DNA from: Limnohabitans sp.
Lineage (GTDB): Bacteria; Pseudomonadota; Gammaproteobacteria; Burkholderiales; Burkholderiaceae_C
NCBI RefSeq assembly: GCF_023910625.1
Contig: NZ_JAAVVW010000003.1
Span: forward strand, 806,001-870,000
Reading direction: 5' to 3'
Length of the DNA stretch: 64,000 nt
The notes beneath the pieces are model-generated. The model did not search any database, was not told the DNA's origin, and saw only the letters and a program-made list of their open reading frames with translations. Positions 18,626 to 34,551 of the stretch are shown here, piece after piece. The position numbers and the translations under genes were made by a program. How positions within the stretch are numbered: the first letter of the stretch is position 1; each line of letters starts with the position of its first letter.

Positions 18626-18872
18626 AAAAAGGCACCAAATACCCGAAAGCGGCAAGCGCGGCCTTCAGACAACAACATCAAGCGACTGACCGGTCCAATC
18701 ACATCCCTGTTTTTACGCAAAACTCGTATAAACCTCGCGTGAGAAATTTTTGGGGGTGGATGGACATAGGTGCAGAGGATCCCATAATGAAGATATCCAC
18801 GGATTGATGGGTTCTGAATGCCTAGTAGTTCGTTCCATCAATACAGTTACTAAATAGATGATAATCGCTATG
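18626..18872. other. Non-coding gap between hemH and the IS element
   Basis: About 245 bp with no convincing gene, RNA or terminator on either strand. It becomes AT-rich towards the insertion sequence. It is the left junction of the accessory island. Confidence 0.4.
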
Positions 18873-19839
18873 TGTCGCATCCCGGATGATCGTAAGGCCG
18901 TTTTATAAACAAATGAGGATGAGAAGCGTACCAGTCTTTCATGGCCCTCATCGGTGTTTTGCTTTTGAGCGCTGACTGGGGTAACTGATGGTTGTACAGA
19001 GCCACGTAACGCATGAGCGTTTGCTCCAAATCTTCACCGCTGGTGAATCGGTGTGTCTTGAGCACGTCAGCGATACGCCCGTTGAAGCGCTCGACCATGC
19101 CATTGGTGCGCGGCGTGCGTGGTTTGGTCAGGCGGTGTTCAATGTTCAAGGCTTGGCACAGTTGATCAAACTCATGGTTGCCCGTGGCCTGGCGCTCACG
19201 GCTGGCAAACAACCTGTCAGTGAACTCCTTGCCGTTGTCGGTCAGAATTTTCTGCATCTTGATCGGGCACGCCTTGTGCAGGGCATTGAGAAACGCTCGG
19301 GCTGCCGCTGCCGTCTTGTGGCTCTTGATCTGCACAAACACCCAGCGTGTGGCGCGGTCGATGGCCACAAACAGATAGCGCCTGCTGGTCTCGTCGGGCA
19401 TCTGGGGCAGGTATTTGACATCGATGTGGATGAACCCCGGCTCATAGCTTTTGAAGGCTTTATGAGGCTCAGTGGGCTCTTTGGGCCTGAGCGCGTTGAG
19501 GTTGCCAACGCCGTGGCGACGCAAGCAACGGTCCAGACCCGAGCGTGTGGCCTGGGGGCAAAGAAACTCACGGCTGACGGCCAACAAATCATCCAGGGGC
19601 AACAGCAGCGTCTTTCTGAGTTCGACCACGATCTGTTCTTGCGCCGGTGTGAGCGTGGTTTGAAGCTTGTGCGGGGTGTGGGACGCGTCATGAAAGCTGT
19701 CTCGACCCTTCCACTTGTAAACAGTGCCTTCACTCACGCCGAAGCGCAACGCCAAAGTGGCAGCAGTCTCCGTGCTGGCCGCCATCTCCGCACGGGTGGC
19801 GGGCGTAGTACGTGCGTTTTTGTGCAAGGCAATCATCAT
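18868..19839 (-). CDS. IS481-family DDE transposase
   Basis: This transposase of about 323 residues has an N-terminal helix-turn-helix (LALRFGVSEGTVYKWKG). The DDE core shows FIHIDVKYLPQM (Asp), KILTDNGKEFTDRL (Asp) and NGMVERFNGRIADV (Glu). All catalytic residues are present, so it may be active. The start could be ATG 19839 or 19836. The coding region runs through the left inverted repeat: the last codon and the stop TAG (18868-18870) come partly from flanking DNA. Confidence 0.92.
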   Translation of the reverse strand: MMIALHKNARTTPATRAEMAASTETAATLALRFGVSEGTVYKWKGRDSFHDASHTPHKLQTTLTPAQEQIVVELRKTLLLPLDDLLAVSREFLCPQATRSGLDRCLRRHGVGNLNALRPKEPTEPHKAFKSYEPGFIHIDVKYLPQMPDETSRRYLFVAIDRATRWVFVQIKSHKTAAAARAFLNALHKACPIKMQKILTDNGKEFTDRLFASRERQATGNHEFDQLCQALNIEHRLTKPRTPRTNGMVERFNGRIADVLKTHRFTSGEDLEQTLMRYVALYNHQLPQSALKSKTPMRAMKDWYASHPHLFIKRPYDHPGCDT

Positions 19840-19961
19840 GACAAGGCTTCCGGGTGGACTGCTGAGGTGACGCAAAGATTGTCTATCAACTGCCGCATGA
19901 CCTCTCTGGCCATGAACAGCGGATACCGTTTTGAGTCAATGCAATCATCCGGGATGCGACA
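18873..19961 (-). mobile_element. IS481-family insertion sequence, apparently intact
   Basis: Terminal inverted repeats TGTCGCATCCCGGATGAT (18873-18890, and the reverse complement ending at 19961) bound a 1089-bp element with one transposase gene. The flanks (…CGCTATG and GGTACCG…) show no clear target-site duplication, so one side may have been rearranged. The right end abuts a decayed SnoaL-like gene. A 3'-end remnant of the same element lies at 59.67-59.82 kb. Confidence 0.9.
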
Positions 19962-20749: not shown

Positions 20750-22069
20750 ATGATCAGATACCTCAAACGCGGAAAAGATGCCCAAGGCCGTGCCGATGAC
20801 GATGTGCAAGTGCGCGCCACGGTGGAGCGCATCTTGAAAGATGTTGAGCAGCGCGGTGACGAGGCCGTGCGCGAGTACAGCCGCAAGTTCGACAACTGGG
20901 ACCCGTCCAGCTTCACGCTTGCACAGGGCGACATAGAAGCAGCCGTCAAGAAGCTGTCCCCCCGCGAATTGGAAGACATTCAGTTTGCCCAAAAGCAAAT
21001 CCGCAACTTCGCGCAGATCCAGCGCGACAGCATGAAAGACGTTGAAGTTGAAACCATGCCCGGCGTAGTGCTTGGCCACCGCCACATCCCGGTAAACGCA
21101 GCAGGCTGCTATGTGCCCGGCGGCAAGTACCCGCTCATTGCTTCGGCCCACATGAGTGTGCTCACGGCCAAAGTGGCTGGCGTCAAGCGCGTGGTATCCA
21201 CCGCCCCCCCGTTTGAGGGCGCGCCCCACCCTGCCATTGTGGCGGCCATGCATTTCGCTGGCGCAGACCAAATTCTGGTTCTTGGCGGCGTGCAGGCCGT
21301 GGCAGCGATGGCCATTGGCACGCAGTCGGTCGAGGCAGTCGACATGCTGGTCGGTCCGGGCAACATGTTTGTGGCCGAAGCCAAGCGCCAGTTGTATGGT
21401 CGCGTAGGCATTGACTTGTTCGCAGGACCCACAGAGACGCTTGTGATTGCCGATGAAACAGTAGATGGGGAAATGTGCGCTGTGGACCTGCTGGGGCAGG
21501 CCGAGCACGGCCCCACCTCCCCATCTGTACTGCTGACCAACTCGGAGAAGCTGGCCCACGATACCATGGCCGAAATTGAGCGCCAGCTCAAGATACTACC
21601 CACCGCAGCCATCGCGGCGAAGGCGTGGGACATCTATGGTGAAGTCATCGTCTGCGACAGCTATGAAGAGATGTTGGCCAAGGCCGATGAGATCGCCTCT
21701 GAACACGTGCAGGTGATGACCCGCGACCCAGACTACTTCTTGACCAACATGACCAACTACGGCGCGTTGTTTCTGGGGCCGCGTACCAATGTGAGTTTTG
21801 GTGACAAATGCATCGGCACCAACCACACGCTGCCAACCAACAAGAACGCACGCTACACCGGCGGCTTGTGGGTTGGAAAATTCCTCAAGACTTGTACGTA
21901 CCAAACGGTGTTGACCAACGAAGCATCTGCCATGGTGGGTGAATACTGCTCGCGCCTGTGCCACATGGAGAACTTCGCCGGGCACGGCGAGCAGGCCAAC
22001 CTGCGGGTGCGGCGTTACGGCACGCGCGCCGAGGTGCCCTGGTACCAACCGGTGCCAGCACTGCCATGA
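20750..22069 (+). CDS. HisD-family NAD-dependent dehydrogenase, HpsN (sulfopropanediol dehydrogenase)-like
   Basis: This 439-residue zinc enzyme belongs to the histidinol dehydrogenase family but sits outside any histidine operon. Its sequence ([41 protein letters not shown]) resembles the HpsN branch that oxidises 2,3-dihydroxypropane-1-sulfonate to sulfolactate. Zinc ligands Gln250, His253, Asp352 and His412 and catalytic Glu318-His319 are all visible. ATG 20750 is preferred over an in-frame TTG at 20693. It overlaps the next gene by 4 bp (ATGA). The family is secure; the substrate is inferred. Confidence 0.8.
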
Positions 22070-22851
22070 ATGCCGCCACCCACCGCACCCCACACCTGCG
22101 CACACCGTCATTCCGTCTTGACGGACGAACCGCGCTGGTCACCGGAGCCGGTCGTGGCATTGGCTCGGCCGCATCTCATGCGCTGGCCCAGGCCGGTGCG
22201 CATGTGTTTCTGGTGGCGCGCTCAGCGGGCGAGGTCGAGGCAGCCTGCTTGGACATCCGGGCTAATGGCGGGAAGGCGACGCCGGGCCAACTCGATGTGT
22301 CCGATGCCGCCGCTGTAAAGGCTTACATCGAGCAAAACGGGCCATTCGACATTCTGGTCAACAACGCTGGCACCAACCGCCCGTCACTGATCACCGACAT
22401 GCATGACACTGACTATGACAGTGTCATGGGGCTGAATGTTCGCGCCACCATGTTCGTCACCCGCGAGGTGGCACGCGGCATGATTGCTGAGGATCGCGGC
22501 GGCACCATCATTACGGTGTCTAGCCAGATGGGTCATGTGGGTGGTCCCAAGCGCAGTCTGTATTGCGCCAGCAAGCACGCGCTGGAGGGCATGACGAAAG
22601 CTTTGGCTTGGGAACTGGGGGCTCATCGAATTCGGGTCAATACCGTGTGCCCGACGTTCATCGAAACTCCCATGACCGCGCCCATGCTCGCCGACCCCCA
22701 ATTCCGCGCCTTTGCCGAGTCCGGCACGGCCTTTGGCCGGGTAGGACAACTGGAAGAAATCATGGGGGCCTTGGTGTTTCTGGCCTCGGATGCCAGCACG
22801 CTGGTGACGGGGTCTGCGCTGATGGTTGATGGTGGCTGGACGGCACGGTAA
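22066..22851 (+). CDS. Short-chain dehydrogenase/reductase
   Basis: This 261-residue classical SDR has the cofactor motif [11 protein letters not shown] near residue 30, NNAGTNRP, catalytic Ser in VSSQMG, Tyr and Lys in [10 protein letters not shown], and the C-terminal VDGGWTAR. It begins inside the stop codon of the HisD/HpsN-like gene, so the two are translationally coupled and probably act on the same polyol or sulfonate. In known DHPS pathways an SDR interconverts enantiomers beside HpsN, which would fit here. Confidence 0.88.
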
Positions 22852-22860
22852 AGGTTCATC

Positions 22861-23883
22861 ATGGTCGCAGTCACCTCTCTTGACGTTGCCCGCCTGGCCC
22901 AGGTGTCTCAGTCTGCCGTGAGCCGGACCTACACGCCTGGCGCCAGCGTGTCCGAAGTGACACGAGCCAAAGTGGAGGACGCTGCCCGCAAACTAGGCTA
23001 CCGGCCCAATGCCATCGCGCGCAGCCTTATCACGCGGCGCAGCCACATGATTGCCGTGGTCATGTCTTATTTGGACAACCATTTCTACCCGGTGGTTCTC
23101 GAAAAGATCTCGCAAAGACTCCAGCGTGATGGGTACCACGTGTTGCTCTTTATTGCCGATACCCGCGATGTCGATACGGTTTTGTCCGACATTCTTCAAT
23201 ATCAGGTGGACGGCCTAGTGCTGGCATCAATATCGCTTTCCAGTGCCCTTGCCTTGCGGTGTTCCGAGGCCGGAATTCCGGTGGTGTTGTTCAACCGCAC
23301 GGCGCGCGAAAGCCAGAACTGCAGCTCGGTCACAAGCGATAACTACGAAGGTGGTCGGCTTATCGCACGTCACCTCGTGGAGACTGGGCATGAACGCATC
23401 GCGTTCATCGCGGGAACCGAGGACACCTCCACCAATCTGGACCGCGAACGTGGCTTTCTGGACTGTCTGGCAGAGCATGGGCGCCGCTGTTTCGCCCGGG
23501 CAGTGGGCAACTATGATTTTGAACAAGCCAAGACTGCTGCCAGGCACTTGTTCGCAGGCTCATCATTAAACCGCCCGGATGCCCTTTTTGTCGCCAATGA
23601 CCACATGGCGATTGCCGTGATGGACACCTTGCGCATCGAGCTTGGGCTTCGTATTCCTCTTGACTTGAGTGTGGTCGGCTTTGATAACGTTCGGCAGGCG
23701 GCCTGGGGCTCTTACCAGTTGACCTCGGTTGAGCAAGATGCCGACGCCATGATTGAGGCCACCACGCAGCTCCTGTTGAACCAAATTGATGGTGAAGTAA
23801 AAAGCAGTTCTGTGGTGCTGCCAGCGCGTCTGGTGGTGCGCGGCTCGACGCTGCGAAGAAACTCCCTGAAAGGGAAAAGATGA
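22861..23883 (+). CDS. LacI-family transcriptional regulator
   Basis: This 340-residue regulator has the N-terminal helix-turn-helix SLDVARLAQVSQSAVSRTY, the hinge YRPNAIARSLITRRS and a periplasmic-binding-protein-like effector domain ending VVGFDNVRQAAWGSYQLTSV. It starts 9 bp after the SDR and overlaps the next gene by 4 bp. It probably senses the pathway substrate and binds the 20-bp palindrome at 20671-20690. Confidence 0.9.
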   Translation: MVAVTSLDVARLAQVSQSAVSRTYTPGASVSEVTRAKVEDAARKLGYRPNAIARSLITRRSHMIAVVMSYLDNHFYPVVLEKISQRLQRDGYHVLLFIADTRDVDTVLSDILQYQVDGLVLASISLSSALALRCSEAGIPVVLFNRTARESQNCSSVTSDNYEGGRLIARHLVETGHERIAFIAGTEDTSTNLDRERGFLDCLAEHGRRCFARAVGNYDFEQAKTAARHLFAGSSLNRPDALFVANDHMAIAVMDTLRIELGLRIPLDLSVVGFDNVRQAAWGSYQLTSVEQDADAMIEATTQLLLNQIDGEVKSSSVVLPARLVVRGSTLRRNSLKGKR

Positions 23884-24944
23884 ATCCGCTTGTCACTCCT
23901 GCAGCCATTGAGTCTCGGACGTTTTGGCAGTCTGGAGCCATGCGCGGGTTTCAAACGGAGTTCAAGAATCTGGACCACTACATCCGGGTCATCACGGATC
24001 GGATCTGGGAAAAAAGGCGCATTGACGATATCAGGCTCTACTACAGTGATCCGTGCATCGTCGAAACCACCCTGAGTGTTTCTACCTCCATAGACGATGT
24101 GATCGCAGGGACACTCGCCACGCTGGCCATGTTTCCGGACCGCCGCCTGTTGGCCGAAGATGTCATCCAGTCAGGGGATGCCCAGGGTGGGTACTTGAGT
24201 TCGCACCGGATCATCTCCCCCATGACCCACTTCAGCGACGGAAGTTTTGGCAAGGCCACGGGTCGCAAAGTACACGCGCGCACGATTGCCGATTGCGTTT
24301 GCAAAGACAACCGCATCATTCACGAATGGCTGGTGCGAGACCATGCCGCCATTGCCCTGCAAATCGGCACCACACCGCGAGCCTTGGCTGAAAGTTGGCT
24401 GAAGCAGCGCGGCGGATGGCACAAGCCATCAGCCGGTCTGCCACCAGCCGGCTACGTACCGCACGTTGAAAATAACGAGCATGCGCAACAGTTTGCGTTA
24501 AGTGTGCAAGGTTTTGTGATGGGTGGAACCCAGGTCGAAACCACCTATGACGATGCGGCCCAAAGCATTGGTCCAGGCGAGCAAACCGCCTATGGCCACA
24601 CCGAAATCAGCGAGTTCTGGCACAGTGTGTTTGGTGGCTTTACCATTAATAGTTACGCCCTCGAACACTTGGCATGGCAAAGTGATGCCGCCCAAAGTGG
24701 CAAGCCCGACCGGGTGGCGATGCGATTCAGGGCCATTGGCAACTATTTGCAATCAAAGAATGCTCATAGCCATCGTGACTACTCAGTTGCTCGCTATGGA
24801 AAAGATAGCGCACAGGAAATTGAACTGCTCGGAATTGTGCATGCCGAATTCCGAGATGGACGCGTGATTCGGCAATGGGTTCTGTTGGATGATGTAGCGA
24901 TCTGGATGCAGATCCTAAATGCCGCAGCGCCGCCTGCCAACTGA
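23880..24944 (+). CDS. Two-domain SnoaL/NTF2-like protein
   Basis: This 354-residue protein has two SnoaL-like halves. The first covers about residues 30-165 (RIWEKRRIDDIRLYYSDPCI to EWLVRDHAAIALQ). The second covers about 205-345 (EFWHSVFGGFTINSYALEHL to QWVLLDDVAIWMQ). Such folds serve as cyclases, isomerases or dehydratases in small-molecule breakdown. It begins within the stop codon of the LacI gene and is the last intact gene of the operon. The exact reaction is unknown. Confidence 0.72.
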   Translation: MNPLVTPAAIESRTFWQSGAMRGFQTEFKNLDHYIRVITDRIWEKRRIDDIRLYYSDPCIVETTLSVSTSIDDVIAGTLATLAMFPDRRLLAEDVIQSGDAQGGYLSSHRIISPMTHFSDGSFGKATGRKVHARTIADCVCKDNRIIHEWLVRDHAAIALQIGTTPRALAESWLKQRGGWHKPSAGLPPAGYVPHVENNEHAQQFALSVQGFVMGGTQVETTYDDAAQSIGPGEQTAYGHTEISEFWHSVFGGFTINSYALEHLAWQSDAAQSGKPDRVAMRFRAIGNYLQSKNAHSHRDYSVARYGKDSAQEIELLGIVHAEFRDGRVIRQWVLLDDVAIWMQILNAAAPPAN

Positions 24945-24981
24945 CTTCATCGCTAGCCTATTCACGCCTCAAGACTTCACC

Positions 24982-25362
24982 GTGGCACGCATTGAACTCA
25001 AGAAAATCGTCAAACAATGGGGTGACGCGGTTGGCGTCAAACGCATGTCACTGGATATTGCTGATGGTGAGTTTCTTATGCTACTGGGCCCGTCGGGCTC
25101 CGGCAAGACGACAACCATGCGGATGGAGGCGAGACTGGAAAACTCCACCTCGGGCGACGAATCGATGGGCATTGCACCAGCGAGTCAGAAGCTCACAATG
25201 CGCAGCTTGGATTTCTGGCGTTGCGAAAGCAGCCTGATTCGTGAGAACTGGTTTCTGGTCGACTGGTTGAACGTCTACAAGCAGATTGGAGTGGGTGTAC
25301 TGGCCCGCATGCGCGAGTTCAACAAGGCACGATTTTTTCAAAATTTCCAAGGCTCCGCATGA
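24982..25362 (+). pseudogene. Chimeric remnant: ABC-transporter ATPase start fused to a SnoaL-like end
   Basis: From GTG 24982 the protein reads as the first ~50 residues of a sugar ABC ATPase (LDIADGEFLMLLGPSGSGKT). It then jumps after about 20 ambiguous residues to a SnoaL-like C-terminus (SLDFWRCESSLIRENW, VGVLARMREFNKARFF). No Q-loop, signature or Walker B is left, so it cannot work as an ATPase. The tail resembles the SnoaL pseudogene at 20.5-20.6 kb. A deletion that joined two genes of a once larger cluster explains it best. Confidence 0.7.
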
Positions 25363-26066
25363 AACCAACGCTTCTTTTGCTGCCAGGCACTCTTTGCGAT
25401 GGGAGGATTTTCAATGCTTTGAAGTGGCGGCTGAAGAAGGTCGTAAATGTGCAGGTTGCAGACTTGCAAAACTATAGCGATACGGATGCGCTGTGCAATA
25501 AATTGCTTGGGCAGCTACCGGAACACTTTTCGATGGCAGGGTTTTCGCTGGGTGGGCTTTTGGCGCTTGAGCTGCTGCGACGCGCACCTGTGCGTGTTGA
25601 ACGCATCGCCCTGATTGCAAGCAATGCCCGAGCGGGTAGCAAAGTTGGCCACCGCAAAAGTAAAACCTTGAAGAACCTCTGGTTCAGCGCAGGTCCAGTC
25701 AAAGTCTCTAGCCTTGTTTTGCCCAACTATTTTCACCACGAAATTTCGCGCCAGCGCCACGCGAACTTGGTGCAAGACATGGCCTTACGTACACCTCGCA
25801 GCGCGGCGTTTGCCCAGTTTGATTGGGCGGCGCATCGCCCCGATGGGCACGCCGTGTTAGCCGCTTTTGCGGGCCCGGTGTTGGTGGTGAGCGGTGCCAA
25901 GGACCGGCTTTGCCCACCACCCTGGCAGAGAGAATTGGTTGAAGCGCAGCCCCGGGCGCACTGGATCGAATTGCCTCGCGTCGGCCATTTCGTTCCGCTG
26001 GAAGCGCCAACATCTTTGGGTAAGGCTTTGCAAGGCTGGCTGCACACCCAAGGCGCAGCCAACTAA
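25359..26066 (+). CDS. Alpha/beta-hydrolase-fold protein
   Basis: This 235-residue hydrolase begins with LLLLPGTLCDGRIF (oxyanion region). The nucleophile elbow is GFSLGGLLAL, the acid is the Asp in SGAKDRLCPP and the base is the His in VGHFVPLEAP. It resembles small carboxylesterases or lactone hydrolases. The start overlaps the end of the chimeric remnant, and it converges with the lacI gene, overlapping it by 4 bp. Its substrate may be an ester or lactone of the neighbouring pathway. Confidence 0.85.
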   Translation: MKPTLLLLPGTLCDGRIFNALKWRLKKVVNVQVADLQNYSDTDALCNKLLGQLPEHFSMAGFSLGGLLALELLRRAPVRVERIALIASNARAGSKVGHRKSKTLKNLWFSAGPVKVSSLVLPNYFHHEISRQRHANLVQDMALRTPRSAAFAQFDWAAHRPDGHAVLAAFAGPVLVVSGAKDRLCPPPWQRELVEAQPRAHWIELPRVGHFVPLEAPTSLGKALQGWLHTQGAAN

Positions 26067-27106
26067 AGCACTTGCGCCTGCGGCAACAACTGGGCTGAAC
26101 CGCGCTCTATCAAGGTACCAGGCATGAGTAATTGGGGATGTGCCACATTCATTTCATCCACACTCTGACGAAACATCAGGCATGCAGCGCTTGCCATGTC
26201 TTCAGTGGGTTGGCGCACGGTAGAGAGCAAATAGGCAGGTCGGCGGCCAGCCGGGATGTCGTCAAACCCAACCACAGAAACATCTGTGGGCACGCGCATC
26301 ATCAGCCCAAATCGAGCAGCATCCAGCACTCCTAAGGCCATAGCGTCGTTGGCGCAAAAAATGACCTCGGGCCGCTTGCTGTCCGGATTCGCCTTGGACG
26401 GGCCAAGCAACTTAATGCCTGCCGCATGACCTGATTCGTAGTGGTAGTCCCCCTCAAATTTCTGGACCTTTTTGACCCCCAATTCCGCCAGTCGAGCAAG
26501 GAAATTGTTGACGCGCTCGGACGACACCGGCGCCTCGACAGGGCCAGTGACTACGGCAAATCGACGGTGGCCCGCTGCAAACAGGCGTGAGGCCAGCAAA
26601 CGGGCAGCGCTCGCGTGGTCACAGACCACACTCAGCGTCTTGGGGTCCGGGCTGTGCCGGTTGAAAAAGACGACCGGGCGCTGGCGTAAATGCGCTCGTG
26701 CGAGAGCAGCAACCGGCAAGCCTACACAGGACAAAATTCCGTCAACGCCAAACGCCAGGGCTTTGTCTAAAGCAGCGCTGCCCTCCAGTTCATGGGTGCA
26801 CGGGAAAAGCAAAGGATGAAAGCCCTGCTGCAGCAAGGATTGGTCGAGCAAGATCAACACCTCAGGCGTATCCCGCTGCGTCGCCTCTGTCAGCAACACG
26901 CCTGCCAGCCCGGAGCGCTTCGTAATCAGGCTGCGGGCCACTGCATTGGGTTGGTAGCCCAGCTCAGTTGCAGAAGCTAGAACCCGTGCCCGCGCAACTG
27001 CCGAAATCGGCGAGTCAGCCTGAAAGGCGCGCGATACCACCGCCTGCGATACCCCCGCGTGGCGCGCCACGTCGTAGGAGGTTGGAGAATTAAACTTTCT
27101 CCTCAT
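26063..27106 (-). CDS. LacI-family transcriptional regulator of the ABC/MetE-like operon
   Basis: This 347-residue regulator has the helix-turn-helix SYDVARHAGVSQAVVSRAF, the hinge YQPNAVARSLITKRSG and an effector domain ending SVVGFDDIPAGRRPAYLLST. It is divergent from the ABC transporter operon. The 125-bp intergenic region carries two near-identical TGAAWTCGAATTCA palindromes, one next to each start codon, consistent with control of both promoters. Confidence 0.92.
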   Translation of the reverse strand: MRRKFNSPTSYDVARHAGVSQAVVSRAFQADSPISAVARARVLASATELGYQPNAVARSLITKRSGLAGVLLTEATQRDTPEVLILLDQSLLQQGFHPLLFPCTHELEGSAALDKALAFGVDGILSCVGLPVAALARAHLRQRPVVFFNRHSPDPKTLSVVCDHASAARLLASRLFAAGHRRFAVVTGPVEAPVSSERVNNFLARLAELGVKKVQKFEGDYHYESGHAAGIKLLGPSKANPDSKRPEVIFCANDAMALGVLDAARFGLMMRVPTDVSVVGFDDIPAGRRPAYLLSTVRQPTEDMASAACLMFRQSVDEMNVAHPQLLMPGTLIERGSAQLLPQAQVL

Positions 27107-27231: not shown

Positions 27232-28545
27232 ATGAAACGTCGCGGAATTCTTCAAGCCACCGCAGCTGGTATTGGTGGTGCCATGGCTCCTTGGGCGCTG
27301 GCCCAGGGCACGGGCGCTCTGAAACCGGGCAAGCCCTACGCAGGAACTGAAGTCAATTTGTTGACGGTTGTTGCGCCCCAGTTCAAAGCCCACGAGGCCA
27401 GGTTGGCAGAGTTTGAAGCGCTTACGGGAATCAAGGTCAAGTACCAATATGTGCCGTTCGCCAACACCCGCGAGAAGCTCACCGCCGAGCTGGTAGGACA
27501 AAGCTCCCAATACGACGTGCTCAGCACCATGGATGTCTGGGGACCGTCGCTCTACAACCTGTTTGAACCCCTCAACGGCATGCTCGCTGAGAAGAAGATT
27601 GATATCGAGTCGCGCTACCCCTATGCCCACGTAAGAGCCTCTCGCGACGGCAACGGCAATGGTAAAAACATTCTTGGCTTCCCTATCCGTGGGCATGTCC
27701 AGTTGATGTTCTACCGCAAGGACATTTTTGACAAGCTGGGCTTGAAGGCACCCAACACATGGGATGAGATGGTTGAGCAGGGCAAGCTGATTTCCTCGAA
27801 AACAGACCTGTCCGGCGTGGCCATGTACTACGGCAAGACAGCAGGCCAAAACCTGATGATCTGGTTCAACTACCTGTGGGGTGGCGGCGGCGATCTGCTG
27901 GATGCTAAAGGCCAGCCCGCCTTCAACAGCCCGGCCGGTATTGCCGCTACGCAAGCCTACATCGACGTCATGCTCAAGCACAAGGCAGCGCCAGCGGCGT
28001 CTGCGTCATTCAACGAAACGGACGCGGTGAACTCTATGGCCCAGGGCAAAAGCGCCATGGTGCCGGTTTGGTGGTGGCGCTATGCCAGTCTGGTTGACCC
28101 CAAGGTATCGACCCTCAAACCCGAGCAGGTTGCATTTGCGCCCTTACCAAGCATGCCCGGTAAGCCAAACACCACGTACACCAACACCTGGTTTTACGGC
28201 ATCAATAAGCACTCCAAGAAAAAGGCAGCCGCCATGGAGTACCTGACCTGGCTTTCCAACCCTGAAATTGAACGGGGTGTCTTGCTGGACAAGAGCATGA
28301 ACGAAGTTGTGGCGATGCAGACCAAAAACCTGCTCGATGCGGATGTGAATGTGCGCTACAAAGGCATGCATGTCTTTGCGGCACAGGCACTCAAGGGTGC
28401 CAAGGGCACACCGCTGTTTTCGCAATGGCCTCAGGTCAGCGACATTCTGGAGGCCAGCATCAGTGAGCTGGCCTCAGGCAAAGCACAGGTCAAGCCAACG
28501 CTGGATGGTGCAGCGGCCCGTGTACGCAAAGCCATGCGTGCGTGA
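27232..28545 (+). CDS. Carbohydrate-type ABC transporter substrate-binding protein
   Basis: This 437-residue periplasmic protein begins with a twin-Arg-like signal (MKRRGILQATAAGIGGAMAP…WALAQ). It has the type-1 extracellular solute-binding fold: VKYQYVPFANTREKLTAELV, TYTNTWFYGINKHSKKKAAA and the Trp-rich VPVWWWRYASL likely near the ligand pocket. CUT1-family binding proteins carry oligosaccharides, glycerol phosphates or sugar acids. An AAGGAG ribosome site precedes it. It is the first gene of a seven-gene operon. Confidence 0.92.
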   Translation: MKRRGILQATAAGIGGAMAPWALAQGTGALKPGKPYAGTEVNLLTVVAPQFKAHEARLAEFEALTGIKVKYQYVPFANTREKLTAELVGQSSQYDVLSTMDVWGPSLYNLFEPLNGMLAEKKIDIESRYPYAHVRASRDGNGNGKNILGFPIRGHVQLMFYRKDIFDKLGLKAPNTWDEMVEQGKLISSKTDLSGVAMYYGKTAGQNLMIWFNYLWGGGGDLLDAKGQPAFNSPAGIAATQAYIDVMLKHKAAPAASASFNETDAVNSMAQGKSAMVPVWWWRYASLVDPKVSTLKPEQVAFAPLPSMPGKPNTTYTNTWFYGINKHSKKKAAAMEYLTWLSNPEIERGVLLDKSMNEVVAMQTKNLLDADVNVRYKGMHVFAAQALKGAKGTPLFSQWPQVSDILEASISELASGKAQVKPTLDGAAARVRKAMRA

Positions 28546-29426
28546 TGAGCCGAATGCGCGTTCCTGTTCACTGGGTGCTGCTGGCACCCGCACTGCTGTT
28601 CGTGGGTGCCATGGCCTTTTTCCCGCTCGGATACTCGCTGATCCTGAGTTTCCGGGAGTGGAAACTGGCCAAGAGCAACACAGCAGGTGACTTTGTCGGC
28701 ATTTCGAATTACACCAACCTGCTCACCGATGACCCGGACTTTTTTGAAGCCATCCAGGTCACGGGCATTTTCATCGCGGCTGATGTGTTGATCACCGTGG
28801 CTGTGGCCCTTGCAGGTGCGTTGTTATTGCACCGAGCCGGTCGGCTCAATTCTTTGGCTCGCACATTGTTGATCCTGCCATTTGTCATGAGCCCGGCCTT
28901 GATCGGCATTTCATTCCGGTTCTTCCTGAATGCCGAGTACGGTGTTTTGGCGTATGCAGTTGGCTGGCTGGTGCCGGCCATGAAAGACACGGTTTGGCTG
29001 GCCGACTCCACATTGTCGATGGCGGCTCTTGTGGTGTCTGATGTGTGGCACTGGGCACCCTACATGATGCTGGTCATGCTGGGCGGCCTCGCATCCATTC
29101 CTGGCGAAACCCAAGAGGCCGCCCGCATTGACGGAGCCTCCAGTTGGGCTGTTTTTCGCGACATCACTTGGCCGCAGCTTTTGCCCGTCGTTAGCGTGAT
29201 CCTGGTTCTCAAAACCGTGTTTGCCCTCAAGGCGTTCGACACCATTTACACACTGACCAATGGTGGCCCGGGCAACTCCACCAAGACGCTGGCGTATTTT
29301 GTTTACGAACAAGGCTTCAACTATTACGACATGGGGTACGCCGCAGCTTCAGCCTATTTGCTTACCGCGGTGTTGCTGGTCATGGCGGGTTTTTACCTGC
29401 GGCTGATTTTTTCGAAAACCCGATAA
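28545..29426 (+). CDS. Sugar ABC transporter permease (MalF/UgpA-like)
   Basis: This 293-residue inner-membrane permease has six hydrophobic segments, starting with VHWVLLAPALLFVGAMAFFP. The coupling loop EAARIDGASSWAVFRDITWP is the EAA motif that docks on the ATPase. ATG 28545 overlaps the preceding stop codon; a GTG three bases upstream is also in frame. Confidence 0.92.
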   Translation: MSRMRVPVHWVLLAPALLFVGAMAFFPLGYSLILSFREWKLAKSNTAGDFVGISNYTNLLTDDPDFFEAIQVTGIFIAADVLITVAVALAGALLLHRAGRLNSLARTLLILPFVMSPALIGISFRFFLNAEYGVLAYAVGWLVPAMKDTVWLADSTLSMAALVVSDVWHWAPYMMLVMLGGLASIPGETQEAARIDGASSWAVFRDITWPQLLPVVSVILVLKTVFALKAFDTIYTLTNGGPGNSTKTLAYFVYEQGFNYYDMGYAAASAYLLTAVLLVMAGFYLRLIFSKTR

Positions 29427-29429
29427 GAC

Positions 29430-30308
29430 ATGATGACTGCATCAACTATTCAATCCCCGTCCCTCATCACCGGCTATCGATCTCCTGCAGATGAGGTGGT
29501 TCGCCACTGGCTAAGGCAACTGCTGGTGTTCATTGGCATTTGCGCCATCCTGCTGCCGATTGCCTGGATCACCCTTACGGCGTTCAAATTGCCGCGAGAT
29601 GTTTACACGTTGGACACGGCTTTCATCTTCACGCCGACCCTCGAGAACTTTTACACAGTGTTCCAACACCCCTGGAACCTGGGCTCCAAGATCATCAACA
29701 GCTTCGCTGTTGCGGGGGGCACCGTGTTGCTGGCGATACCCATGGCCACCATGGCTGCGTATGCTTTTTCCCGGTTTGATTTTCGTTTCAAGCGGACTAT
29801 TTTTTTGATCGTTATTGCATCGCAATTCATTCCCGCCGCAGTCATCGTGTTGCCCTACTTCCTGATGTTCAAACAGTTCGGTTTGTTGGATACCCGCACC
29901 GCCCTGGTGCTGGTCAACATGTCCATCGTGTTGCCTTATGCGGTTTGGATGATGAAGGGTTTCATCGACGCGGTACCGCTTGAAATTGAAGAATCGGCCA
30001 TGGTGGACGGTGCGCACCGCGCACGTGTGATTTGGGAGATCGTCGTGCCGGCAGCACTGCCCGGCATCATCACCGCGGCCGTTTTCAGTTTCACACTCAC
30101 GTGGAACGAGTTCCTCTTCGCCCTCATCATCAGCAAGCAGGATGCGCTCACCCTGCCCATTGGCCTGATCGGTTTCAGAACCGAGCGCGGCGACCTTTGG
30201 GAGCTGATGGCGGCCGGGGGCATTCTCATCACGGCACCCATGTTCATCATCTCCCTGCTTGTACAAAAGCAATTCATTCAGAGCCTGACCGCTGGCTCAG
30301 TGCGGTAA
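29430..30308 (+). CDS. Sugar ABC transporter permease (MalG/UgpE-like)
   Basis: This 292-residue second permease of the heterodimer has the first membrane segment LLVFIGICAILLPIAWITLT and the EAA loop IEESAMVDGAHRARVIWEIV. Typical SRFDFRFKRT and LTWNEFLFALI stretches follow. It lies 3 bp after the first permease. Confidence 0.92.
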   Translation: MMTASTIQSPSLITGYRSPADEVVRHWLRQLLVFIGICAILLPIAWITLTAFKLPRDVYTLDTAFIFTPTLENFYTVFQHPWNLGSKIINSFAVAGGTVLLAIPMATMAAYAFSRFDFRFKRTIFLIVIASQFIPAAVIVLPYFLMFKQFGLLDTRTALVLVNMSIVLPYAVWMMKGFIDAVPLEIEESAMVDGAHRARVIWEIVVPAALPGIITAAVFSFTLTWNEFLFALIISKQDALTLPIGLIGFRTERGDLWELMAAGGILITAPMFIISLLVQKQFIQSLTAGSVR

Positions 30309-30327
30309 GTTCCAGTCGGAAATCCCC

Positions 30328-31395
30328 ATGACACAAATTTCACTTCGCGGTCTGCACAAAACCTTTGGTACCACTCATGTGGTGCGTGACCTCAACCTGG
30401 ACATCGACGACCAGGAATTCCTTGTTTTGTTGGGTCCTTCAGGCTGCGGCAAAACCACCACCATGCGCATGGTGGCCGGGCTTGAGCAGGCCAGCCATGG
30501 CGAGATTGCCTTTGACGGCAAACGTATTAACGAGATACCAACCCAGCAGCGCGACGTGGCTATGGTGTTCCAGAACTATGGCCTTTACCCCCACATGACC
30601 GTGGCTGAGAACATTGCCTACCCGCTGAAGCTGCGTGGCGTCAGTACCGCTGACCGTGAGGCCGCAGTGCGTAAGGCAGCGGGCCGGGTTGAATTGGACC
30701 CGTATCTGCACCGCCGCCCACGCGAGTTGTCTGGTGGACAACGTCAACGGGTGGCATTGGCACGCAGCATTGTGCGTACCCCAAAAGTGTTCCTGATGGA
30801 TGAGCCCTTGAGCAACCTGGATGCCAAACTGCGCGTTGCCATGCGGGCTGAAATCAAGCACCTGGCCTACGAGTTGCAAGTCACCACCATCTATGTGACG
30901 CACGACCAAGTGGAGGCCATGACGCTGGCGAACCGGGTGGCGATCATGAAGGACGGGGTCATCATGCAACTTGCCTCGCCGGAAGAAATCTACAACGATC
31001 CAGTCAACCTTTATGTTGCTGGTTTCATTGGAAGCCCTGCCATGAATTTGTTGGCTGTCAATGCGCAAGGCGGCGCAGTCACGGCTGAAAACGGTGTCCC
31101 AATCAAGGTTACTGCACCGAGGCAGGGCGCACTCACCATGGGCATTCGCGCTGAAGACATGCAGATGGTCTCCAACGAGGAGGCTAACTTTTCAGCAGAG
31201 ATTTATGCCTTTGAGTTGATGGGTGACTCGACCATGATCACCTTCAAGTTTGGGCAAGCCGGGGTGGCAGTCAAGGGCGACAAGAACCTCAGGCTCAAGT
31301 TCGGCGACCGTGTGGGTGTGCGCATTGACACTTCACGGCTTTACTGGTTTGACAATGAATCCGGGGAAAGAATCCGATCAACACTTGGCCGTTGA
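30328..31395 (+). CDS. Sugar ABC transporter ATPase (MsmX/UgpC type)
   Basis: The 355-residue ATPase has Walker A GPSGCGKTTT, the Q-loop MVFQNYGLYPHMT, signature LSGGQRQRVALARS, Walker B VFLMDEPLSNLD and the switch His in YVTHDQ. A C-terminal OB-fold (TOBE-like) domain follows from about residue 235. It completes the transporter and overlaps a possible TTG start of the next gene. Confidence 0.94.
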   Translation: MTQISLRGLHKTFGTTHVVRDLNLDIDDQEFLVLLGPSGCGKTTTMRMVAGLEQASHGEIAFDGKRINEIPTQQRDVAMVFQNYGLYPHMTVAENIAYPLKLRGVSTADREAAVRKAAGRVELDPYLHRRPRELSGGQRQRVALARSIVRTPKVFLMDEPLSNLDAKLRVAMRAEIKHLAYELQVTTIYVTHDQVEAMTLANRVAIMKDGVIMQLASPEEIYNDPVNLYVAGFIGSPAMNLLAVNAQGGAVTAENGVPIKVTAPRQGALTMGIRAEDMQMVSNEEANFSAEIYAFELMGDSTMITFKFGQAGVAVKGDKNLRLKFGDRVGVRIDTSRLYWFDNESGERIRSTLGR

Positions 31396-31430: not shown

Positions 31431-32594
31431 ATGCAGACTCCTTCACAATTAAAAAATCGGTTCATACCTTTCTCAAGCCTTGAATACTCCACAGAGGCTT
31501 TCATCGATTACTGTATTCCTGAATGCTCACCTAAGAAAAATTACGCTCTGATAGGGCCCGGTGTTTCTCAAAATCCTAACCAACCGGTCAGTCTGCGTGA
31601 AAAGCACGGATTTCAAGTAGGGGGTGTTTCAATGCCACCGGGGAAAATCAACCCACCTCACATGCATTTCACCGCAGAAGTATTCATGTGTACCAAGGGC
31701 CAATGGGATCTTCAATGGGGCTTTAATCCAGAGCCCTTGAAGGCGCGCCTTGGTCCCGGTGACATTGCGAGTGTCCCAACCTGGATTTATCGAGGATTTC
31801 AAAATGTGGGGGAGGATGAGGGTTTCATGTTCACGGCCTTGGGCCAAGATGACACAGGCGGTATTTTGTGGGGACCGCAAACATTGCAGGCAGCTCGCGC
31901 TCATGGTGTCCACCTGACGGAGGATTACAGGATCATTGATGAGAATTCAGGGCAAATCTGGAATTCGAGCTCCATGAAGCGACTGCAACCGATGACCAAT
32001 ACGGAAATCAGTCAACTGAAGCATTGGCCGATTGAGGCAATGAAACAGCGAGTGGTGCGCCATTCCGAATTGGACTGGCAGTCGGACGCGCTTTTGGATG
32101 CTGTTGCTGATGCTGGTGGCGCTCAAATGGCCCCTGTGATTGGCTTGGGAATGAGTCAATCAAGATCTCACTGCGCGCCGATTCACAATGCTCATGGATT
32201 TTCCATCGAATGGTTACGAATACCTCCAGGGGGGCATGTAGCAGCCCATACTCTTTCAGAAAAGCAGGTGCTGTCCATCTATCAGGGGTCGCTGGCAATT
32301 CATGTCTCCTCTGATGTTCAAACCACAGCTCAAATGATTGCAACTGATCCCTTGTGCATTGCTCACGGACATTCTGATGCTTGGGACAGTTTTGCAATGC
32401 CAGGCGAAGTATGGCGATGTCTCCGTAATGTCGGTGATGTTCCTGTTGCGGTGCTGGTGATGACGCCAGGTGATTCGCGCAAAATAATCCAATGGGTACC
32501 TGAAGTGGTGGATGCCGCAGGTCGAGCAGGCTATTCAATCGATGCCAATGGATATGTCGCCATGAAAAGATTTACTGATAGGTCACAACGATGA
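31431..32594 (+). CDS. Two-domain cupin protein
   Basis: This 387-residue bicupin has a first cupin motif near residue 70 (PPHMHFTAEVFMCTKG, giving His-X-His and Glu ligands). The second half (WLRIPPGGHVAAHTLSEKQV, then IYQGSLAIHVSS) has lost part of the usual His set. ATG 31431 is used; a TTG at 31392 overlapping the ATPase stop is possible. Cupins include sugar isomerases, dioxygenases and lyases. The DNA is more AT-rich than the ABC genes upstream, suggesting separate origin. Function unassigned, but operon position implies a catabolic step. Confidence 0.78.
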   Translation: MQTPSQLKNRFIPFSSLEYSTEAFIDYCIPECSPKKNYALIGPGVSQNPNQPVSLREKHGFQVGGVSMPPGKINPPHMHFTAEVFMCTKGQWDLQWGFNPEPLKARLGPGDIASVPTWIYRGFQNVGEDEGFMFTALGQDDTGGILWGPQTLQAARAHGVHLTEDYRIIDENSGQIWNSSSMKRLQPMTNTEISQLKHWPIEAMKQRVVRHSELDWQSDALLDAVADAGGAQMAPVIGLGMSQSRSHCAPIHNAHGFSIEWLRIPPGGHVAAHTLSEKQVLSIYQGSLAIHVSSDVQTTAQMIATDPLCIAHGHSDAWDSFAMPGEVWRCLRNVGDVPVAVLVMTPGDSRKIIQWVPEVVDAAGRAGYSIDANGYVAMKRFTDRSQR

Positions 32595-33748
32595 ATAATA
32601 CCAATCGCATATTGACAACCCTGGTGGGCAGTCTGCCCAGGCCTGAAGCAGTTGTGGAGCAACTCTTCGCCCAAGACAGCGGTCTGAATTACAACGAGCA
32701 GCAGTTCGACAAACTCATGAAAGCTGAGGTGCTCAACGTAGTGACAAAGCAGAAGGACTCAGGTGTCGACGTCGTGAGCGACGGCGAGATGAGCAAAATC
32801 AGTTACGCGACCTATATCCGGCATAGGCTGACAGGTTTTGAAATTGGCGAAATGCCCCGCGCAACCCCTAAAGACCTCGATGATTTTCCTGACTTTAAAG
32901 AGCGACTCGCCAAATTAGGCGCTACGCCCAAATACCACAGACCTATTTGTACTGGCCCAATTGCCGTCAAAGACTTAAGTGGCCTGCATAAGGACATCGA
33001 CAACCTCAAAGCAGCATGTCAAGCGTCAGGCGTTGAACGAGGCTTCATGAACAGCGCCTCACCCGGTGTGATCGCCGTTTTTCAACCGAATCAATACTAC
33101 GCCAATCACGAAAAGTATCTGAGCGCATTGGCTGATGCCATGGCAGCAGAATATGAAGCTATTGTGGCTTCCGGTTTGGAGTTGCAAATCGATGCCCCTG
33201 ACTTGGCGATGGGCCGGCACATCCGGTTTCGTGACGCAAGTGATACTGAGTTCATGACCGCTGCTGAGCAGCAGGTTGAGGCCCTTAATCATGCTTTGCG
33301 CAACGTGCCCGCAGAGCGTGTGCGAATGCATATTTGCTGGGGCAACTACGAGGGGCCTCATCATCATGACATCGAACTCAAACGTATCATTGGCTTGGTT
33401 TGCAAAGCTAAACCTGCAACCATTTTGTTTGAAGGCGCTAATCCGCGCCATGCCCATGAATGGGAAGTCTGGGCGGATGCTCAGAAAAAAGGGCAATTGC
33501 CAGACAATAAAATTTTATGCCCTGGTGTACTGGACTCCGTCAACAACTTCATTGAGCATCCGCGCTTAATTGCGCAAAGACTGTTGACATATGCCAACAT
33601 TGTTGGGCGCGAAAGAATCATGGCCGGAACAGATTGTGGTTTTGGCACGTTTGCTGGTTATGGCGCAATTCACCCCTCTATTGGTTTCGCGAAACTCAAG
33701 TCCATGGCCGAAGGTGCAGCCATGGCATCTCAGGATCTCTGGTCATGA
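32591..33748 (+). CDS. MetE-like zinc-dependent methyl/alkyl-transfer protein (methionine synthase II family)
   Basis: The 385-residue protein corresponds to only the C-terminal catalytic barrel of cobalamin-independent methionine synthase. All four zinc ligands are visible: His247-X-Cys249 (MHICWGNYEG), Glu281 (ATILFEGANP) and Cys349 (AGTDCGFGTF). The family opening LVGSLPRP is present. The folate-binding N-terminal half is missing, so it is unlikely to be a true MetE. Relatives include epoxyalkane:coenzyme M transferases. It overlaps both neighbours by 4 bp, so it is an integral member of the pathway operon. Confidence 0.85.
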   Translation: MNNTNRILTTLVGSLPRPEAVVEQLFAQDSGLNYNEQQFDKLMKAEVLNVVTKQKDSGVDVVSDGEMSKISYATYIRHRLTGFEIGEMPRATPKDLDDFPDFKERLAKLGATPKYHRPICTGPIAVKDLSGLHKDIDNLKAACQASGVERGFMNSASPGVIAVFQPNQYYANHEKYLSALADAMAAEYEAIVASGLELQIDAPDLAMGRHIRFRDASDTEFMTAAEQQVEALNHALRNVPAERVRMHICWGNYEGPHHHDIELKRIIGLVCKAKPATILFEGANPRHAHEWEVWADAQKKGQLPDNKILCPGVLDSVNNFIEHPRLIAQRLLTYANIVGRERIMAGTDCGFGTFAGYGAIHPSIGFAKLKSMAEGAAMASQDLWS

Positions 33749-34551
33749 CAACACATGGAATTCATCCACTCGACACCCGTTTGAAAGAGGCCCTGCACAG
33801 CGGCAAAACTTTGCGAGGTGTTTTCAATGGACTTGCCTCACCTGCGATTGTCGAAATGTGCGCTTACGCAGGATTTGACTTCGTGGTTTTGGACAATGAA
33901 CACGGAATCGCAGATCTTGAGGTGACAGAAAACATGCTGCGTGCAGGTCGTGCCAGCGGTATTCCCATGGCTGTGCGCTGCTTAGAGCATGACATTCCTC
34001 GCATCCTAGATGCTGGGGCAGGTGGATTGAAGATTCCGATGGTCAATACCCCAGAACATGCTGCGGCTTTAGTGCAACGCGTGAAATACACTTTGCCACC
34101 CCATAGCTCAGGCATTCGTGGTGCGAGAGGCAGTGCTTTTAGCAGTCGCGCTGCAGGATACGGCGCGTTTGGCGGGCCCAGCCATACACAACGTAGTAAC
34201 GATGGCATTGCTTTGATCGTGATGATCGAGACACCGCAAGCCGTGGCCAATGCCGCTGCGATTGCCGCTGTGCCAGGCGTTGACAGTGTGTTCGTCGGCC
34301 CCAATGACCTGGCGCACAGCATGGGATGTGAGAACCGCTGGAGCGAACCAGCTGTTCAAGCGGCTATTGAAAGCACGCTGAAAGCAGTCGCCGCAGCTGG
34401 CAAATGTCCTGGCATTTTGGCTTTGACACCCGAAGAAGAAGACCGTTATGCATCTTGGGGAGCACGCTATTTTGCGAGTACGACTACTGGGCTCATCACC
34501 AAAGCTTTTCGCGAAGCGGTACAAGGCAACAAGAAAAATTTGGAATATTGA
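33745..34551 (+). CDS. HpcH/HpaI-family aldolase
   Basis: This 268-residue class II aldolase splits 2-keto-3-deoxy (or 4-hydroxy-2-oxo) acids into pyruvate and an aldehyde. Visible motifs are GVFNGLASPAIVEM, VVLDNEHGIADLE with a metal-site Glu, IVMIETPQAV with the second Glu, and VFVGPNDLAHSMG. The start ATG overlaps the stop of the MetE-like gene. It is the last gene of the operon and points to a 2-oxo-acid intermediate derived from a sugar-like compound. Confidence 0.9.
   Translation: MTTHGIHPLDTRLKEALHSGKTLRGVFNGLASPAIVEMCAYAGFDFVVLDNEHGIADLEVTENMLRAGRASGIPMAVRCLEHDIPRILDAGAGGLKIPMVNTPEHAAALVQRVKYTLPPHSSGIRGARGSAFSSRAAGYGAFGGPSHTQRSNDGIALIVMIETPQAVANAAAIAAVPGVDSVFVGPNDLAHSMGCENRWSEPAVQAAIESTLKAVAAAGKCPGILALTPEEEDRYASWGARYFASTTTGLITKAFREAVQGNKKNLEY

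Follow-up and report, generated by a model that had tools for sequence, protein, structure and literature searches.

Price et al. describe four families of core methionine synthases with corrinoid or unknown methyl donors (PMC7857596). In MetE and in MesD, homocysteine is bound by S433, E484, and D599 (MetE numbering), and MesD needs MesX and oxygen (Price et al., PMC7857596). A 'Mes-like' gene has also been deleted in Phaeobacter inhibens (PGA1_c27430), and the accessible part of that report gives no effect of the knockout on DMSP-driven lag shortening (PMC12366255); in the same part we found neither a catabolic role for the gene nor a test of one. Here, we analyzed a MetE-like gene in a 64,000-nucleotide stretch of DNA from Limnohabitans sp. 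(the window, meaning this whole stretch). We propose, with about as much doubt as belief, that its product is a zinc-dependent homocysteine S-methyltransferase that needs no folate and would perform the demethylation within a catabolic pathway. The gene is surrounded by the following features, given in their order within the window.

20750..22069, + strand: HisD-like dehydrogenase, nearest to HpsN, with Leu at the His126 position
22066..22851, + strand: SDR oxidoreductase
22861..23883, + strand: second LacI-family regulator
23880..24944, + strand: double-domain SnoaL-like (NTF2 fold) protein
24919..25362, + strand: deletion scar joining an ABC ATPase gene (5' end) to a SnoaL gene (3' end)
25359..26066, + strand: alpha/beta hydrolase; nearest, far below cut-off, is 3-oxoadipate enol-lactonase
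26063..27106, - strand: LacI-family regulator, transcribed divergently from the transporter operon
27232..28545, + strand: solute-binding protein of a CUT1-type ABC transporter
28542..29426, + strand: ABC permease 1, which clusters with other permeases
29430..30308, + strand: ABC permease 2
30328..31395, + strand: ABC ATPase (CUT1 type)
31431..32594, + strand: bicupin with H77, H79, and E83, the most constant partner; its stop overlaps the ATG of the MetE-like gene
32591..33748, + strand: MetE-like catalytic-domain protein, 385 aa, identified by open frame, residues, conservation, and fold
33745..34551, + strand: HpcH/HpaI class II aldolase; its ATG overlaps the stop of the MetE-like gene

The first-pass annotation had placed the gene in a sugar-type catabolic operon, and this is borne out by the LacI regulator, the CUT1-type ABC transporter, the cupin, the MetE-like gene, and the HpcH/HpaI aldolase. 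ATGA overlaps are present on both sides of the MetE-like gene (32591-32594 and 33745-33748), which is predicted to be translationally coupled to the upstream bicupin and the downstream aldolase. The start listed for the bicupin frame (TTG at 31392) is probably too early, and the orthologue in another genome (G009, L113) starts at the equivalent of 31431. The metal-type residues H77, H79, and E83 of the bicupin are invariant; at the position of the usual fourth ligand, a histidine, stands R121, an arginine that is invariant in 33 sequences. The bicupin model resembles oxalate decarboxylase and quercetin dioxygenase (quercetinase), which would be compatible with, but is not proof of, an oxygenase acting on an enolone. 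Promoter and terminator scans returned nothing above shuffled sequences. A second module lies directly upstream and contains the HisD-like dehydrogenase, the SDR, a LacI regulator, the double SnoaL protein, and the alpha/beta hydrolase. In a related locus (L034), about 4.9 kb, including a transporter, separate the two gene parts that are joined in the scar; one transporter has therefore been lost here, and a second type (27232-31395) sits downstream. An IS-type transposase frame (18868-19875, - strand) is found just upstream of the catabolic cluster and, together with the two-type structure of the cluster, suggests lateral movement.

The frame at 32591-33748 runs through 385 codons without a stop and encodes the catalytic half of MetE alone, the N-terminal half being absent. 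As the first-pass annotation had it, H247, C249, E281, and C349 fall on the zinc ligands H641, C643, E665, and C726 of E. coli MetE (b3829). What it had missed are the homocysteine contacts, which are also present: in the same alignment, S14, E66, and D201 correspond to S433, E484, and D599. The zinc ligands, E66, and D201 are invariant and S14 is nearly so among 43 sequences (relatives of 52-79% identity), and all seven residues stay invariant across 12 more diverse sequences (37-91% identity). Because the ligands align with those of MetE and stay invariant in both sets, their match reflects homology rather than chance, and with the homocysteine contacts they make up the full residue set of a core folate-independent methionine synthase. 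In addition, the family has invariant residues of its own (R17, R79, Y188, R245, D260, N284, H287, H289, and H323), all nine of which are missing from MetE, MesD, and epoxyalkane:coenzyme M transferase (EaCoMT); N284, H287, and H289 follow closely after the zinc ligand E281 and would be good candidates for the donor pocket.

The profile score for Meth_synt_2 (PF01717; 38.4 bits against a gathering score of 21, a partial match over residues 8-83), the MetE C-terminal fold, and the aligned zinc ligands place the protein in the PF01717/MetE catalytic-domain superfamily. Its scores against NCBIfam models are far under the cut-offs; it belongs neither to full MetE (TIGR01371/PRK05222; 24.7 versus 929.95 bits) nor to the MesA type, for which we take PRK00957 to stand (37.2 versus 258 bits). 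A single-sequence search of the PDB gave no match, and a profile search retrieved 1ypx, 3rpd, and MetE structures. The first-pass annotation had proposed comparing the pocket of a predicted structure with MetE and EaCoMT, and the AlphaFold model (mean pLDDT 90.9) closely matches both MesD (3rpd, with selenomethionine; Z 37.7, rmsd 2.2 over 322 residues) and MetE (1xdj, with homocysteine; Z 35.6). In a tree, the family stands apart from MetE, MesD, EaCoMT, and a YxjG-type protein (SH-aLRT 97, subject to long-branch caveats). Fusion with a partner domain was considered and judged unlikely: the listed long reading frames look like start-site overcalls, and no fused domain was seen.

The host genome (3.17 Mb, three contigs) contains only two Meth_synt_2 genes. 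Meth_synt_1 (PF08267) has no match in it, while control genomes did give matches, and this domain is found in only 4 of 18 family-bearing genomes. A split MetE with a separate folate half is ruled out by its absence from the host and from the other 14, and the earlier description of a half-length protein lacking the folate-binding half holds for the whole genome. Another homocysteine methyltransferase domain is present in all 18 family-bearing genomes, and MetH occurs in every one of 60 examined genomes of the genus, whereas close relatives of the MetE-like gene were seen in only 2 of the 36 genus genomes searched; the gene is therefore an accessory catabolic gene and not the methionine synthase of the cell. 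Two single-base shifts, neither in a long homopolymer, split the large part of the host metH (G000:C3:2214600-2217238, L118) into three reading frames; real decay and assembly error are both possible, and many congeners have an intact open metH frame. The second Meth_synt_2 gene of the host is MesD by its model score (565 versus 392 bits), and MesD identity is ruled out for the MetE-like protein, which scores 45.9 against the same cut-off. This MesD paralogue (G000:C3:1133989-1137981; L001 1477-3600) adjoins a gene for a luciferase-like flavin monooxygenase that might play the role of MesX; MesX itself (PF08908, DUF1852) has no match in the host genome, but none in the control genomes either.

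A scan of the collection returned at least 593 relatives of the MetE-like protein, a large and uncharacterized family that occurs in hundreds of genomes of Burkholderiales, roseobacters, SUP05, SAR324, OM60-type gammaproteobacteria, sphingomonads, Chloroflexi, and Actinomycetota. The best 80 of these were fetched. Neighbors were counted by tblastn in 51 loci at least 17 kb long; background stretches taken from elsewhere in the window and in the Xanthobacter plasmid gave no match to any of the queries. The cupin is found in 43 of the 51 long loci, HisD in 41, SnoaL in 36, LacI in 32, and the SDR in 30. Class II aldolases are also frequent (HpcH in 12/51, RraA in 14/51), and many of the long loci contain CUT1 components or an SSF symporter. 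By the same search, metF and purU each occur in none of the 51. A corrinoid-protein homologue lies within 10 kb in only 1 of 91 loci, which speaks against a dedicated corrinoid donor protein; at that locus (L104, 18420-20267, a gammaproteobacterial MAG) the cluster is followed by genes for a corrinoid-binding protein and a member of the URO-D family. Gene sets are thinnest in Chloroflexi (cupin, MetE-like, and HisD) and in a congener whose small contig has the transporter, the cupin, the MetE-like gene, and HpcH; for some haloarchaeal, Dietzia, Pantoea, and acidobacterial members the catabolic cluster is absent within about 10 kb.

Several loci depart from the usual arrangement. On Sphingobium and Novosphingobium plasmids (L025 and L026), the sphingomonad branch lacks the cupin/HisD cluster and lies within a few kb of a LigM-like O-demethylase and metF, in L026 also of purU and ligAB, with an NTF2-like gene directly behind the copy. 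At L114 (15715-17977), a 57% identical relative is found beside genes for an LtnD-like dehydrogenase and an OtnK-like kinase, neighbors that belong to four-carbon sugar acid catabolism. A MAG titled Bordetella parapertussis (L047) carries an acidobacterial-type copy whose sequence and neighbors are almost identical to those of a Bryobacterales MAG (L051), and its title or binning looks wrong.

The HisD-like partner is nearest to the DHPS dehydrogenase HpsN (395 bits), whose motif G-R-Y-A/S-H contains the sulfonate-binding His126 (PMC11382572). The copy in the window reads G-K-Y-P-L, so that Leu replaces His126, and the corresponding region is [GA]-[KR]-[YF]-P-[LM] in 44 of 46 cluster homologues, that is, in all 44 in which the motif is readable. 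A pathway for DHPS or another sulfonate is ruled out by this loss of His126. Judged by its motif, the partner is neither a DHPS dehydrogenase nor a typical histidinol dehydrogenase, and the HisD/HpsN family appears to include a third specificity group beside G-S-A-P-L (HisD) and G-R-Y-A/S-H (HpsN).

The retention of the MetE residues within a widespread catabolic cluster suggests that the protein probably strips a methyl group from a nutrient and places it straight onto homocysteine. We propose that zinc bound by H247, C249, E281, and C349 would hold homocysteine as a thiolate, the carboxylate being gripped by S14 and the amino group by E66 and D201. Attack of this thiolate on the methyl group of a small-molecule intermediate made by the neighboring enzymes would yield methionine and a demethylated intermediate, which would probably pass first to the cupin and next to the aldolase (HpcH here, RraA elsewhere). 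On the best reading, the transfer is independent of corrinoid as well as of folate, and the methyl group ends up in methionine. The observations behind this proposal are the fold, the seven residues and how well they are conserved, the linkage of the genes, and the lack of both a folate half and a conserved corrinoid gene; from them we infer homocysteine as the acceptor, a pathway-derived methyl donor, and the order of steps. The first-pass annotation had predicted that the protein activates a thiol for methyl or alkyl transfer with 'a different donor or acceptor'. These observations support thiol activation and transfer of a methyl group from a donor that is not methyl-folate, but do not support a different acceptor: homocysteine is the likelier one because the S/E/D triad is kept here and two of its three residues are lost in EaCoMT, and from the residues it is the most likely acceptor. 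The triad is also present in remote 1ypx/YxjG-type relatives, and may thus mark ancestry more than present substrate.

As to the donor, aerobic cells that use no dedicated folate or corrinoid partner would need one with a good leaving group. The most plausible candidate, an enol methyl ether arising from an earlier oxidation or dehydration, fits the dehydrogenases and 2-oxo-acid aldolases present. Two specific donors can be conjectured: a 2-methoxy-enoate derived from a sugar acid methylated at O-2, or, for cyclitols of the mycosporine/gadusol type, their 2-methoxy-enolone. In the sugar route, a 2-O-methyl sugar acid would be converted to a 2-methoxy-2-enoate, whose demethylation would give a 2-keto-3-deoxy acid for cleavage by HpcH aldolases. 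In the mycosporine/gadusol route, an assignment argued from chemistry, the HisD-like enzyme would oxidize the CH2OH group to COOH, the MetE-like protein would demethylate the enol to a cyclic reductone, and ring opening by the cupin would give 4-carboxy-4-hydroxy-2-oxoadipate, cleaved by RraA or HpcH to pyruvate and oxaloacetate. RraA was rejected as a LigK-type CHA aldolase (28.5 versus 304.5 bits), and since it is only weakly LigK-like, the CHA end-point is unsupported by sequence. The Amidohydro_2 protein of gammaproteobacterial clusters, nearest to L-fucono-1,5-lactonase (115.6 against a cut-off of 400), leans toward a sugar-lactone route over the mycosporine idea. Against the catabolic demethylase reading, the cluster is absent near some family members, and no S-adenosylmethionine-cycle or methylated-substrate gene recurs to name the donor. 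The wider proposal, that the cluster represents an undescribed aerobic O-demethylation in which a MetE catalytic domain standing by itself passes the methyl group directly from a methylated nutrient of the sugar or cyclitol type to homocysteine, with no need for folate, cobalamin, or an oxygenase, is put forward only tentatively.

Given that the fold and all the residues are as in MesD and MetE, and that the four families of this kind already described use corrinoid or unknown donors (PMC7857596), the protein could instead be a fifth ordinary core methionine synthase, taking the methyl group for homocysteine from a general carrier (a methyl-corrinoid protein or an unknown one), with its operon link reflecting a local need for methionine; a back-up might also be useful to a host whose metH is read in three frames. 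We consider this unlikely in view of the single corrinoid gene among 91 loci, the homocysteine methyltransferases already present in all 18 tested family genomes, the patchy accessory distribution, and the strict clustering with catabolic genes. Nor does the P. inhibens homologue substitute for the main synthase, as mutants of the split synthase there are methionine auxotrophs or weak growers without methionine. The dependence of MesD on MesX and oxygen (PMC7857596) raises a related idea, in which the cupin would be a functional counterpart of MesX and the pair would make and use an oxygen-dependent methyl donor. The constancy of this neighbor (43/51), its ATGA overlap with the MetE-like gene, and its HxH...E metal motif in a bicupin fold common to quercetinase and oxalate decarboxylase all agree with such a role, which we nonetheless regard as rather improbable: no relation between the cupin and MesX was seen, the MetE-like protein is not MesD, and the idea would not account for the dehydrogenases, aldolases, SnoaL proteins, and transporters that recur.

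Two further explanations depart from methyl transfer to homocysteine. EaCoMT shares the Pfam family and the zinc ligands, and SnoaL-fold proteins include epoxide hydrolases, so that a thiolate might open an epoxide or add to an unsaturated intermediate to form a thioether that is later cleaved. We see a slim chance of this, since EaCoMT has N/R at S433/E484 and the MetE-like family S/E, no thioether-cleavage gene recurs in the 51 long loci, and identity to XecA is only 22.6%. The zinc could also serve outside thiol chemistry, activating a substrate hydroxyl, an enolate, or water for a lyase or hydrolase reaction. The family-specific N284, H287, and H289 beside E281, together with D260 and H323, all absent from MetE, MesD, and EaCoMT, would suit such an enzyme, but the complete homocysteine triad has been kept under long divergence, and this is the least probable of the readings considered.

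If the catabolic demethylase reading is true, the cluster would represent an unrecognized breakdown route for a common dissolved methylated compound, in the sea and in fresh water, with the methyl group passing straight into methionine. Annotated records call relatives 'methionine synthase', which in that case would mislead reconstructions of methionine and B12 metabolism. The interesting part is the catabolic association of a core MetE type across many phyla; what is new is a variant of a known core MetE type. In the searchable literature we found no catabolic role proposed for the family, and nothing relevant on the gene combination, on mycosporine or gadusol catabolism, or on homocysteine-dependent O-demethylases.

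Among described proteins, the P. inhibens 'Mes-like' PGA1_c27430 is very probably an orthologue. The deletion primers available from that report (PMC12366255) match the cupin gene (one mismatch) and the RraA gene (three mismatches) that flank roseobacter members of the family, and one matches the start of the alpha/beta hydrolase gene (three mismatches in L030, two in L058). In the Ruegeria locus (L023), the MetE-like gene is flanked at a distance of about 1 kb by the two outer primer sites, as the 1000-bp arms given in PMC12366255 require. Because these primers map onto the flanking cupin, hydrolase, and RraA genes, the knockout concerns the same cluster; its null DMSP result, as reported in the accessible part, neither supports nor excludes a catabolic demethylase. 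The YxjG/YxjH-type 'B12-independent methionine synthase II' (1ypx) is likewise half-length with the same residues (Z 30.7), but is remote (22% identity to a same-order member). MetE of E. coli shares the catalytic-half fold and the seven residues, and differs by its N-terminal folate-binding half, which is found nowhere in the host genome, and by an identity of 22% over the shared part. MesD (PRK09121; 3rpd) is similar in having a single catalytic domain, the fold, the zinc and homocysteine residues, and no folate half; apart from its model score, the MetE-like protein differs from it in sequence (24% identity) and in gene setting, its neighbors being a cupin and other catabolic genes and not MesX. 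EaCoMT (XecA, Xaut_4865, of Xanthobacter Py2) resembles it in its half length, four zinc ligands, and catabolic setting, yet is no closer in sequence than MetE or MesD. XecA keeps D599 but has N/R at S433/E484, as would be expected of an enzyme binding coenzyme M, which lacks both amino and carboxyl groups, whereas the MetE-like protein has S14 and E66. This difference, a homocysteine triad kept here and lost in EaCoMT, makes the question of the acceptor directly testable.
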